Assembly (NCBI GenBank): GCA_025361285.1
Contig: JANYAP010000099.1
Coordinates: forward strand, 1-34,495
Length of the DNA: 34,495 bases
Direction: 5' to 3'
Origin: Bacteroidales bacterium
GTDB lineage: Bacteria > Bacteroidota > Bacteroidia > Bacteroidales > JAAUTT01
The position numbers and the translations under genes were made by a program. Under the pieces are notes generated by a model. That model ran no database searches and had not been told where the DNA came from. It saw only the letters and a program-made list of their open reading frames with translations. Positions 314 to 33,998 of this stretch are shown in pieces; the first letter of the stretch is position 1; the number at the start of each line of letters is the position of its first letter.

Positions 314-708
314 TTGTGGAGCTGGAGGGAGTCGAACCCTCGTCCAAACAAGAAACCGATAAACTTTCTACATGTTTATTTGATTATTGGTTTTCGAATT
401 GCAAGTGGAAACCAACATCCGATTGCAACCTTATTCCCTTAATTTTGCCCGAAAAGCAGGACATTTTTCGAACTAGCCCGAACTCACGTACACCACTGGG
501 TCGGAAAGCGCCAGGCGGGCTCGCCGAGTGATGTCTTGTCCCAAGCACCTAGGCGAGGGATTAAGCTTTATTCACTTGGTGAATTAAGCAGCAAGAGCGT
601 AATTATTTTCGCCTTTTATAGTTTGTACCCCCAGATTAAAGAGCGGTTGATACGTGGCTCCACATGCTTACTTACCTATTTGCCTTGCTGTCAATACCGG
701 CCAGCCCC
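314..708 (-). ncRNA. ssrA: tmRNA (transfer-messenger RNA)
   Basis: Reverse complement begins GGGGCTGGCCGGTATTGACAGCAAGG... and ends GGACGAGGGTTCGACTCCCTCCAGCTCCA. The ends pair as an acceptor stem. An internal tag ORF reads GGC GAA AAT AAT TAC GCT CTT GCT GCT TAA = GENNYALAA. Confidence 0.96.
584..613 (-). other. tmRNA proteolysis-tag reading frame (GENNYALAA-stop)
   Basis: Direct translation of the minus strand at 613..584 ends in ALAA-stop, the classic degradation tag. Confidence 0.93.
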
Positions 709-29144: not shown

Positions 29145-30554
29145 TTACTTCTTTACAAGAAAAAACTCAACTCGCCGGTTAATGGCTTTACCTTCAGCGG
29201 TAAGATTGGTTTCAATTGGTTTAAGTTTGCCGTAACCCATTGCTCGTAAACGCGTTGGCTCAATTCCTTTCGACACCAAATAATCGACAACAGCTTTGGC
29301 ACGACCTAGGCTTAGGGTAGTGTTGTATTTATCCGATCCATCGCTATCGGTATGTCCGCCAATTTCGATAAGATGAACGCCAGTTTCGGTAATAAACGCA
29401 ACAACCTTATCGAGTTCGGCAAACGATGCTGGTAAGAGTGTTGTTTTTCCGTATTCGAAAAAGAGATTTTTAAGAACAATAGCGGTACCTTCCTGAATGC
29501 TTTGTAGTCCATCGGTTAAAGCATCGGCAGGTATTTCGGGTTCGTTAAAAATTATTTTTCCCGATGATGTGCAATTATACATGTCGTTAGCTGTGTATGA
29601 ATATGTTCCGGGTGGAAGGTTTGTTAACTTAGTGCCTGTTTGATTGTTGGACCATTTTATATTGTATGGTGCTGTGCCTCCGCGTATTGCAAGCGTTATT
29701 TTGCCATCGTCCTTTTTACCTTTAAATATTCCGGTACGAGGGTCGAATCCACCAGTATAGCTCGAATCGATAAGAGCAACATCCATAGAATGAGGCACAC
29801 AAGGGCAGTCGTTACAATCTTTTAACTCCTTGATTGTAAAATCGTCGAAAAAATAAAAAGCGTACGATTTGTTACGTAAGTTAGTGGCATTCTTATCGGT
29901 AACTACATAGTTGGTGTGGTCGTAATTTTTAAAATTGCCAACGGTAAAATATCGCTCGTTGCCCGATGATATATAAACTTGGCAGTATCGCTCCCAGTCG
30001 GCAATATTATCGAGGAAAAGACCGGCTTTATTGTTTAGTTGCGCTTCTACGGCAAGATTTTCCTTCGAAGTTGTTTTAACTTCTTGCTGACTAAAATACA
30101 TACTTAACTGATCGACAGCGAATTTTGAGTACGACGCCAATCGGTAATAGAATGTAATACAGTACTTTTTGTCTTTTTCGAGCGGTTTGCTTAACGAGCC
30201 TTGAAAGTATTCGCGGTAGTTGTACTCGGTACCAGTTAAAATGGCTCCCATATATGCGTTTCCGGTGTGTGGTTCGCTCTGTCCGGCAAAATTATTAGGC
30301 ACGCGCACCTCGCCAGTACTACATTTGTTGAAATAATCGGGCGTTGCCGACGTTGGATACGTCCAATTGGGGATAAGCTTATGCGAATAATCCATTGACG
30401 TAGGTGACTCGGGGCATTTTTCGTATGTTTCGAAGCTAGGGTTTTGCACCAAGTTGTTGTCCAGAGAATTAGAGGTCTGTCCTTGTATTTGTATAGAAAA
30501 TACTGCACCAGCAATTATGCTAAGTACTTTTGATTGGGTAGATATTGTTTTCAT
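29145..30554 (-). CDS. OmpA-family protein with SprB-like repeat
   Basis: C-terminal LIEIGGHTDSDGSDKYNTTLSLGRAKAVVDYLVSKGIEPTRLRAMGYGKLKPIETN (OmpA); GGTAPYNIKWSNNQTGTKLTNLPPGTYSYTANDMYNCT (SprB-like). Start trimmed to MKTISTQSKV. Confidence 0.9.
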   Translation of the reverse strand: MKTISTQSKVLSIIAGAVFSIQIQGQTSNSLDNNLVQNPSFETYEKCPESPTSMDYSHKLIPNWTYPTSATPDYFNKCSTGEVRVPNNFAGQSEPHTGNAYMGAILTGTEYNYREYFQGSLSKPLEKDKKYCITFYYRLASYSKFAVDQLSMYFSQQEVKTTSKENLAVEAQLNNKAGLFLDNIADWERYCQVYISSGNERYFTVGNFKNYDHTNYVVTDKNATNLRNKSYAFYFFDDFTIKELKDCNDCPCVPHSMDVALIDSSYTGGFDPRTGIFKGKKDDGKITLAIRGGTAPYNIKWSNNQTGTKLTNLPPGTYSYTANDMYNCTSSGKIIFNEPEIPADALTDGLQSIQEGTAIVLKNLFFEYGKTTLLPASFAELDKVVAFITETGVHLIEIGGHTDSDGSDKYNTTLSLGRAKAVVDYLVSKGIEPTRLRAMGYGKLKPIETNLTAEGKAINRRVEFFLVKK

Positions 30555-30593
30555 TAATTTAGGTGTTATCGGCATGTGCTAGTAATGAAATAA

Positions 30594-30922
30594 TTACTGT
30601 GTTTCCAGCAATTTAAAAATGTTTAATAAACTAATATTCAATTGATTAATTTCATTAACATTAAGGCAGTCTAAAATACCCAACGCTAGTTCTACATCAA
30701 TGGTTGCAATTTTATTAATACGAATAAGTGATATTGTTTTCAGACCATTTTCGATTGTTGGCCTCACAATGATATCGTGTTTTTCCTGCCAGTGAAGTTC
30801 GGAGGTTATAAAGCAGACCGTAACATCTACCTCATTTGAAAATAGAATAACTGCAGGTGGTATCTTGCTCCCTTTCAGTCGGTAAATGGAAAACGAATGA
30901 GAATAATATCGCCCTTATTCAC
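30594..30922 (-). pseudogene. PemK/MazF-like toxin with a single-nucleotide frameshift
   Basis: Starts GTG overlapping the antitoxin stop (GTGA): (M)NKGDIILIRFPFTD* then frame continues LKGSKIPPAVILFSNEVDVTVCFITSELHWQEKHDIIVRPTIENGLKTISLIRINKIATIDVELALGILDCL...LLETQ*. Adding one base at ~30876-30882 restores FPFTDLKGSKIPPAVILFS. Absent from the supplied ORF track. Confidence 0.8.
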
Positions 30923-31146
30923 TTAAATTTTACTTTTAAATCGTTCACAGAATAGAGTTCAGGTTCGCTATTCAAAAAATTGTATAATTTTGAAGTTGAA
31001 GCAATTTCTTGTATCCCTTCAGTAATAATCTGATTATCAATTTTATTAAGAAGGAAGTCGACGAAATCGTTCACTTCACTAATTCGCGATTCGGGCAATT
31101 TTTGAATATTTACAATTGTTTTTTGTAGAACAAAGCCGTAATCCAT
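30919..31146 (-). CDS. Small antitoxin-like protein (DUF2281/VapB-like) of the PemK locus
   Basis: 75 aa, 'LPESRISEVNDFVDFLLNKID' motif; stop overlaps the GTG start of the downstream toxin frame. Confidence 0.6.
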   Translation of the reverse strand: MDYGFVLQKTIVNIQKLPESRISEVNDFVDFLLNKIDNQIITEGIQEIASTSKLYNFLNSEPELYSVNDLKVKFK

Positions 31147-31180: not shown

Positions 31181-31219
31181 AAATAAAAGCAGACCTGTAA
31201 GCCGGGTTCTGTCGCCGCC
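31181..31219 (-). repeat. Duplicated 3' end of RNase P RNA (copy A)
   Basis: aaataaaagcagacctgtaagccgggttctgtcgccgcc matches 32406-32444 at 37/39 positions; the latter is the 3' terminus of rnpB. Confidence 0.9.
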
Positions 31220-31327
31220 TTATCGAACTGCAGTGAAACGGGGCGGATGTTCGAAGCGCATAATTTTCAACATGCAACCTACAATGCACCCACTTTGGTA
31301 TATAATGCGTGTTGACAACTAGGCATT

Positions 31328-32188
31328 TTACAATTTTTCGATTTCGTCCTTAGTTAATCCTGTTGATTTCGTAATAATCTCAATCGCTACGCCATTATTT
31401 TTAAGTCCTTTTGCAAGTTTATATTTTTCGTCTAATCTTATTTTATCCTCTGCATCAACTTTCATAGTCCAAGCCATACTAGCGCTATAATGCAAATCCT
31501 CAATATGTTTTAGATACTTTTTACGCTCATCATCAGAAAGACTATCAACACGCCAAAGTTCTTTAGCTTTATCAATCCCTTTAGCGTTGAAATAATCCTT
31601 AATCTCGTTGTTTTTAAAGTAATAAATCCATTGATCTAATGAATCTTTGGCTACATTGTTGAAGTTATTTACCTTAATCACATAATACTCAAGGGAAATT
31701 TGAAAAGGTTCTATCTTCCCTCCTAGAAGTTCGGTTTGCTTTGATGATAATTTTAATTTGTCTGACGTATGCAATCCAATAAAATCAGTCTTACCATGAT
31801 AAACATAATCTTCTCCTTGTCCTAAATCAAAATATACGATGTTTATCGAATAGACTTTTTTAATATTTTTATATGGTTCTCCAACTGAAATATATTCACT
31901 AATTACCTTAGCGGTTTCATAAGCCATTCGATGAAAATAATCATATTCGTTTTCATTCTGAACCTCAATAATTACAAGCTCTTCCTTGGAATTTTTAACC
32001 AACAAATCTACACGGTTAAATTTATCAGAATTAATTTTTTGATTACTCTCGCTTTCAAGTATGGAAAGTATATTAATATCATCCTTTAAAAGTTCTGAAA
32101 GAAATCCCTCCAATACCGAGAAATCGGCTTTATTTCGCAGTAATCTTTTTATCGCCCAATCGAACCGTATTAAATTCCTATTTTTCAT
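31328..32188 (-). CDS. Rpn-family recombination-promoting nuclease / PD-(D/E)XK putative transposase
   Basis: LIRFDWAIKRLLRNKADFSVLEGFLSELLKDDINILSILESE...KFNRVDLLVKNSKEELVIIEVQNENEYDYFHRMAYETAKVISEYI: (D...E.Q) nuclease core. C-terminal KLAKGLKNNGVAIEIITKSTGLTKDEIEKL is typical of the family. Start trimmed to MKNRNLIRF; an upstream ATG exists at 32209. Confidence 0.88.
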   Translation of the reverse strand: MKNRNLIRFDWAIKRLLRNKADFSVLEGFLSELLKDDINILSILESESNQKINSDKFNRVDLLVKNSKEELVIIEVQNENEYDYFHRMAYETAKVISEYISVGEPYKNIKKVYSINIVYFDLGQGEDYVYHGKTDFIGLHTSDKLKLSSKQTELLGGKIEPFQISLEYYVIKVNNFNNVAKDSLDQWIYYFKNNEIKDYFNAKGIDKAKELWRVDSLSDDERKKYLKHIEDLHYSASMAWTMKVDAEDKIRLDEKYKLAKGLKNNGVAIEIITKSTGLTKDEIEKL

Positions 32189-32405
32189 TTTCCAAGCTAT
32201 TATGGGCAAATTTAATCATTTAATTGGAATCCAGATATATACTCATGGTCGACACTATTTGCATTGTTGCCAACGGATGATTAAAACAAATTGAAATATT
32301 TAACCGCGCTTCTCACAAAGCTTAAAATCTTTTTTAAAACGATTTGTATATCTGATTTGTGCAAGTTGCCATAATAATTACGCTTTTTTCATAAAATGTC
32401 GAAAA

Positions 32406-32803
32406 AAATAAAAGCAGGCCTATAAGCCGGGTTCTGTCGCCGCCCGAGAGCGGGTTCTATCATTTATCTGGGATTGGCGTCGCCGCCAACCACTAGCGAC
32501 CTACCCCTCACGACTGCTTTTGGCATCAATGCGAGCAGCTCTGTATTCGTTTTGCAACGAAAATCGTGATATACATGGTCTTACAACCCATCAGACACAC
32601 GGCTGCCAATGTTGCCACCAGCACCGGTGAGCTCTTACCTCACCTTTTCACCCTTACTAAGCTGCAACACGTTGCGGCAAAGCGGTTGTTTTCTGTTCTG
32701 TTACTATACCATCGCTGGTATCTTCCCGTTAGGAAGCATGGTGCCCTTCGTTGCCCGGACTTTCCTCCCCAGTTTTCACCGAAGCGATAGAACGACCTGC
32801 TTT
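32406..32803 (-). ncRNA. rnpB: RNase P RNA (bacterial)
   Basis: Minus strand AAAGCAGGTCGTTCTATCGC...GAGGAAAGTCCGGGC...GGTAGGTCGC...GACAGAACCCGGCTTATAGGCCTGCTTT. The P1 ends pair perfectly (AAAGCAGGUC/GGCCUGCUUU). Confidence 0.95.
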
Positions 32804-32808
32804 ATTTT

Positions 32809-32888
32809 AGTACTGAGTACTAATTATCAATTATATACCAATATACTTTACTATCATAATAATTCTATATACTTGGTACTTAGTACTT
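32809..32888. repeat. Inverted pair of short 7-bp-period repeats between rnpB and the DUF2027 gene
   Basis: Left AGTACTG AGTACTA ATTATCA ATTATAT A. Right arm reverse complement AAGTACTA AGTACCA AGTATAT A. Confidence 0.55.
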
Positions 32889-33998
32889 CACCATAACCAT
32901 CGTTGCCCCAAAGCCATATTCCTTAAACGAGGCATCCTGATATTTAAGGTGTTTGTATTTGGTGTCCAATGTTTTGCCTATTTCGTACTTTAATTTTCCA
33001 TTGCCTACGCCATGGATAAATACTATTTTTTTTACATTGCCACGAATAGCGCCATCGAGAGCAATGGTAAAACGTGCTAGTTGTAAATCGATAATTTCGC
33101 CAGCACTCATAGATGAATGATTATCAACTAGTTCTTCGATATGAAGATCCACTTCTTCAATATCGGATTTTGTGGTTGACTTTGCCGATGATTGCAGTTT
33201 TTTTGTCGATGGAGCTGTATCTTTTCGAATTTTTTGAATTATGTATTTATCTTCGTTTTCCGACACAACACGTTCTATCTCATACAGTAAGCTTTCCTCG
33301 GTTATGTTTATTACTATGGCTTTTTCGTCGAAATAGTCGTTCACCAACCAATTAGATGGCTCAACCATTTTTAAAACATCAATTTTATATTCGTAAATAA
33401 CAGGCTCGTGTGGAAGAAAAATTCCCTTCTTGTAAAAAATACATGATAATTTAAGTGCCTGTAATTGTTTTAGTTCCGTTGTTGTAAGTGTAAGTATGTG
33501 TAGCTTCGAATCGTCCTCAACCATTCCAGCTTTTTTGCCGTACACAAAATTATCTTTAACCACCGAAAGCGAGTACATCATTCGATAGGTGCAATCGCTA
33601 ATTATAAACAACTTAAAATCTGGTTCGTTGCGGCCTTTTAGCTGAACGGGCACCAACCCCAAAAGTATGTTTAGAGTGCAGTTTTCGGAGGTAATAATCT
33701 CATCGTCGTTATAACCAAAAGCTTCATCTTCAACAACTTCATCGGGAATAAAATTAATATCCTTCTTAGCAACATTAGCTTCCGATTTAGTGCTTATCGA
33801 TTGTTTAATTGGTACAACAGCGGCTTGCCTCATGTCGCCAAAACCAGCTTCTATCACAATAATTAAATCGGCAAACGGCGATGGAATTTCAAAACCATCG
33901 GAATTTTGCACAAAAGCCACTTTATCTCTAACTTTTGTAACAACGCCGCCACCCACATCGTTCAAAAACTTTACTTTATCGCCTACTTTAAATGTCAT
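32880..33998 (-). CDS. DUF2027 domain protein with C-terminal Smr domain
   Basis: 372 aa. N-terminal MTFKVGDKVKFLNDVGGGVVTKV; C-terminal VDLHIEELVDN...IVFIHGVGNGKLKYEIGKTL (Smr). Confidence 0.92.
   Translation of the reverse strand: MTFKVGDKVKFLNDVGGGVVTKVRDKVAFVQNSDGFEIPSPFADLIIVIEAGFGDMRQAAVVPIKQSISTKSEANVAKKDINFIPDEVVEDEAFGYNDDEIITSENCTLNILLGLVPVQLKGRNEPDFKLFIISDCTYRMMYSLSVVKDNFVYGKKAGMVEDDSKLHILTLTTTELKQLQALKLSCIFYKKGIFLPHEPVIYEYKIDVLKMVEPSNWLVNDYFDEKAIVINITEESLLYEIERVVSENEDKYIIQKIRKDTAPSTKKLQSSAKSTTKSDIEEVDLHIEELVDNHSSMSAGEIIDLQLARFTIALDGAIRGNVKKIVFIHGVGNGKLKYEIGKTLDTKYKHLKYQDASFKEYGFGATMVMVKY

Follow-up and report, generated by a model that had tools for sequence, protein, structure and literature searches.

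Gene content of the rnpB locus

The window, i.e. the whole stretch of 34,495 nucleotides that was analysed, belongs to a fragmented Bacteroidales draft genome (3.2 Mb, 202 contigs). Towards one of its ends it harbours a complete RNase P RNA gene (rnpB) with an Rpn-family nuclease gene downstream, a second, detached rnpB 3′ end (copy A, as opposed to copy B within the intact gene) and a toxin-antitoxin gene pair (Table 1). A tmRNA gene is located at the opposite end of the window (314-708, minus strand).

Table 1 Features of the rnpB-Rpn region with their positions in the window.
Feature	Position	Strand	Remarks
OmpA/SprB-repeat gene	29145..30575	-	Downstream rnpB neighbour in G001
Frameshifted PemK/MazF-like toxin gene beside the antitoxin gene	30603..30935	-	PF02452, 28.2 bits (intact part)
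DUF2281 (VapB-like) antitoxin gene beyond copy A	30919..31146	-	PF10047, 29.5 bits; weak NF050009 match below cut-off; gene absent from the G001 locus
Copy A, detached second rnpB 3′ end	31181..31219	-	37/39 identical to copy B
Filler from the Rpn stop codon to copy A, no gene	31220..31327	.	No relatives found; unlike the rnpB body
Rpn-family PD-(D/E)XK nuclease gene, 286 aa	31328..32188	-	PF12784, TIGR01784; conserved start
Upstream part of the Rpn module	32189..32274	-	Common to L081; blastn match from about -86 of the start codon
Filler from rnpB to the Rpn module, no gene	32275..32405	.	Without counterpart in L081
Copy B, rnpB 3′ end within the intact gene	32406..32444	-	Direct-repeat partner of copy A
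rnpB, RNase P RNA class A, complete	32407..32803	-	RF00010, 226.1 bits, model 1-367
DUF2027/Smr-domain gene, upstream neighbour	32880..33998	-	Conserved beside rnpB in congeners

The Rpn gene is intact, and its protein matched PF12784 with 85.5 bits (cut-off 27.4) and nearly the whole TIGR01784 model with 85.8 bits (cut-off 52.1). Its translation likely starts at 32188; the ORF tool had chosen a TTG codon at 32209, and homologues begin at residue 8 of this longer ORF. The closest relative (L081) shows 88% protein identity over the matched part, and the DNA common to both loci starts about 86 nt before the Rpn start codon, which leaves about 130 nt between it and the rnpB repeat. As described in the first-pass annotation, Rpn is the sole gene between the two rnpB ends, and no integrase gene was found between the repeats or near the insert. 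The GC content is 29-31% in the Rpn gene, its upstream filler and the antitoxin gene, compared to 36% for the window. Neither Rpn nor the toxin-antitoxin pair had a match in PADLOC, and no third repeat was found at the toxin-antitoxin insert beyond copy A.

The rnpB 3′ end is present in two copies

Copies A and B form a direct repeat in the same orientation with 37 of 39 positions identical. This is far above chance, as neither 100 shuffles of the downstream region nor the rest of the window gave more than 23/39, and the recurrence of the last 39 nt of rnpB with two mismatches, from which the first-pass annotation had started, is thereby confirmed. Only two copies exist in the 3.2 Mb genome, which rules out an origin of the block from a dispersed repeat family unrelated to rnpB, a concern raised with the initial proposal. 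When searched with the RNase P RNA model, copy B lies inside the complete gene, and copy A appears as a partial match (E 6.4e-5).

Both mismatches fall into the 3′ strand of the P1 helix and pairing is kept at each. The first reading had interpreted them as a replacement of G-C by a wobble pair. According to the RF00010 alignment this holds for one mismatch, where G-C is replaced by G-U, whereas the other goes in the opposite direction, with G-U in copy B and G-C in copy A.

An ungapped extension of the two copies reaches 52 nt at 88% identity, with an AT-rich added part. Beyond the block of 39-40 nt, the flanks of copies A and B show no similarity above that of shuffled sequences on either side, and no residual rnpB similarity was found adjoining copy A. 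Such sharp edges would fit a block of identity as for an att site, unlike a longer duplication that has decayed; the latter is disfavoured because it would leave more similarity in the flanks. Furthermore, copies A and B have the motif GGCGGCG in common, which is missing from the congeners, and therefore probably share an origin in their own lineage that postdates the split from G001. It is copy B, not copy A, that is like G001 at the two differing bases and in a T-run. This resemblance is consistent with a native copy B and a foreign or drifted copy A, for which two bases constrained by pairing are weak evidence.

The site is empty in a sister species

Next, we compared the locus with its counterparts in related genomes. 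The gene order in the sister species G001 (locus L049) is collinear, comprising the Smr gene, rnpB, a gap of about 110 bp, the OmpA gene and a TPR gene. The empty site that had been predicted for relatives is thus present, with a single rnpB end and no Rpn gene or copy A; the toxin-antitoxin pair is missing there as well. Judging by this collinearity, the insertion is real relative to G001. Another congener (G004) has a different gene again downstream of rnpB, and this gap is therefore variable in the genus.

Compared with the usual signs of an RNA-gene island, the locus has an intact rnpB with the displaced gene end at the distal side and an empty site in a relative, but no integrase gene inside the element. 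Among 393 genomes of the order, the rnpB-end motif is present in 123 and doubled only in the genome under study. In the phylum sample, G722 alone has a further double motif; there, a copy of the rnpB 3′ part lies beside an rRNA operon, which is a different event. This second copy is found at locus L176 (contig C1 of G722, about position 3786758).

Integrases adjoin rnpB ends in viral contigs

To see rnpB ends in mobile elements, the motif was sought in the viral contigs of IMG/VR. A motif with full P1 was not found in this collection; looser patterns yielded many intact rnpB genes, either in host flanks or on phage contigs with tRNA arrays, as well as cases with an integrase. In three viral contigs, a tyrosine integrase confirmed by Pfam adjoins the rnpB 3′ end. 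Contig L096 (6185-7756) contains a complete rnpB followed by an integrase on the opposite strand, which ends 62 nt past the motif start, and L120 (1-1240) carries the last 124 nt of rnpB and then an integrase whose end lies 59 nt beyond the start of the motif. The temperate-phage-like contig L108 (557-1859) has no rnpB body, and the stop codon of its integrase is located about 100 nt from the rnpB-end motif. In its sequence layout, this arrangement resembles attP. On L105, a candidate integrase-like frame overlaps the motif. Consequently, rnpB is plausible as an att target.

On two further viral contigs (L106, L107), arrays of tRNA genes surround a complete rnpB. The four motif matches from the phage collection that were inspected look like ordinary bacterial rnpB loci and were discarded. 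A host rnpB matching the attP-like motif of L108 was not found in the genomes tried, which probably represent the wrong group, and the motif searches of IMG/VR gave no Bacteroidota element with an rnpB attP. In the open-licence papers searched, we found no description of rnpB as attB.

Origin of the insertion

The most likely reading, to which we give about an even chance, is that an integrase-less insertion carrying Rpn as cargo left a unique att-like scar at the rnpB end, through a recombinase that we infer. The 39-nt pair would then be an attL/attR-like remnant of a small integrative insertion at the rnpB 3′ end. A DNA circle bearing a near-copy of this end would have recombined with the chromosomal end, keeping rnpB whole, leaving the other copy about 1.2 kb downstream and adding the sequence in between. 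The recombinase would probably have been a tyrosine integrase, either lost afterwards or acting from elsewhere. The Rpn nuclease, probably a defence or toxin-type gene, may have arrived with or into the element, and the toxin-antitoxin pair beyond copy A could have entered the same gap between rnpB and the OmpA gene independently, probably at an earlier time.

This explanation is supported by a repeat that is unique and above chance, by a block covering the 3′ end of an RNA gene that itself stays intact, by the empty site in G001, by the viral integrases at rnpB ends, by GGCGGCG in both copies and by the low GC content of the insert genes. Against it count the missing integrase, the uniqueness of the event (1/123 motif-bearing genomes of the order), the lack of a Bacteroidota element with an rnpB attP among the IMG/VR matches, the similarity of copy B to G001 and the lack of a third repeat at the locus. 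The first-pass annotation had proposed rnpB as an att-like target of an Rpn-carrying unit, with copy A as the displaced old end. Its att-like part agrees with the insertion relative to G001, the sharp block and the precedent of the viral integrases. The assignment of copy A as the old end is not favoured, and neither Rpn as the agent nor rnpB as a habitual Rpn target is supported.

The main rival to an att-type scar is a process free of any recombinase, in which foreign DNA served to repair a staggered break or a replication slip close to the end of rnpB, with gap filling or template switching as the source of the 39-40 nt duplication on the two sides of the insert. Such a course is possible, although we regard it as rather unlikely. 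It would agree with the absence of an integrase, with the single occurrence in the order and with the short, sharply bounded duplicated unit, and the copy beside the rRNA operon of G722 demonstrates that partial rnpB copies do arise in other ways. However, the edge of the block coincides with the functional 3′ end of the RNA gene, which is the usual place of an att block, and a random duplication need not end there.

A direct repeat with an insert would also result from short-homology recombination or transformation, if a relative's fragment consisting of an rnpB end followed by Rpn had crossed over at rnpB; copy A would then be the recipient's own end. We consider this improbable, since an arrangement of rnpB followed by Rpn was found in no relative, a homology of 39 nt is short for RecA, and the lineage-specific GGCGGCG is present in both copies.

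Rpn genes at other loci

As Rpn proteins of E. coli promote RecA-independent recombination (PMC5350276), the Rpn protein could also have brought its own gene to the end of rnpB; the repeat would then be a recognition site or a long target duplication. A possible parallel is found in L071 (4930-7385), where direct repeats of 37 nt (36/37), with no further copy in the 6.5 Mb genome, enclose an AAA ATPase gene and an Rpn gene of 77% identity. In addition, 7 of about 49 other Rpn loci are flanked by repeats scoring at least 25, compared to 3/160 control windows, with several of these seven being dispersed repeats or tandem genes. The more general idea that Rpn units insert by their own mechanism and leave target duplications of about 37-40 nt, so that the rnpB block and the L071 pair would be two footprints of it, nevertheless appears highly doubtful.

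For the locus itself, we likewise regard a move driven by Rpn as very improbable. It had been expected that Rpn genes elsewhere would be flanked by rnpB ends, but not one was: in the 18 genomes of the order whose rnpB was located, none of the 39 homologues lies on the rnpB contig, the flanks of 20 GTDB homologues (a set with many distant Bacteroidota at 65-79% identity) contain no rnpB motif, tRNA or tmRNA, and the five other Rpn loci of the same genome show no such repeats and no RNA genes. The module shared with L081, as described above, starts about 130 nt away from the repeat. Terminal inverted repeats are not a general feature either, as Rpn flanks scored no better against their own partner than mixed flanks. 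Furthermore, the E. coli rpn genes have been described as not autonomously mobile (PMC10327210). No close relatives of the Rpn protein were found in IMG/VR.

Two known types of mobile unit were considered and rejected. For an IS or transposon with Rpn as its transposase, the conserved inverted repeats and target duplications of such ends were not found at the Rpn loci, most of which have no flanking repeats; for an integron gene cassette, neither the window nor most homologues have the core boxes GTTRRRY and RYYYAAC where they would be expected. The Rpn-ATPase unit of L071 is followed by a nucleotidyltransferase/HEPN-like pair. Rpn units at L078 (9914-10890) and L129 (1418-2381) are 85% identical with sharp homology edges of the form GTTGGGG...CCCCAAC; similar ends are weaker in L070 and in the window and are not general across Rpn loci.

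An assembly artefact of the metagenome-derived contig is extremely unlikely: a 39-nt repeat in a fragmented draft of 202 contigs could mislead an assembler, but both flanks are collinear with G001, neither junction occurs on any other contig, and two errors would be required.

Comparison with known systems

The Rpn protein belongs to the same Rpn/PDDEXK_2 families as the Rpn nucleases of E. coli (PMC5350276, PMC10327210), which have been described as phage-defence toxins with internal antitoxins (PMC10327210). The E. coli proteins are of the PF04754 type, whereas the one found here matches PF12784/TIGR01784. With regard to Rpn biology, our analysis gives mainly a negative result, namely a nuclease gene without a general link to rnpB.

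Site-specific integration at the 3′ ends of RNA genes has been described mainly for tRNA and tmRNA genes. Like islands and prophages of this kind (Islander/TIGER class), the insert lies directly past an RNA gene that is kept whole, with the displaced end at the far side; in contrast to them, the target is rnpB, and the insert of about 1.2 kb contains a single gene, which is not an integrase. CIMEs are integrase-less remnants flanked by att sites. The locus resembles them in having att-like repeats without a recombinase in between, and differs in that no related autonomous element with the same ends was found. The contigs L096, L120 and L108 likewise have the rnpB 3′ end as an apparent att site, but they carry an integrase, appear from their sequence to belong to other phyla and are unrelated in sequence to the insert described here. 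Altogether, the scar at rnpB and the integrase-bearing viral contigs elsewhere suggest that rnpB ends should be included in searches for genomic islands.
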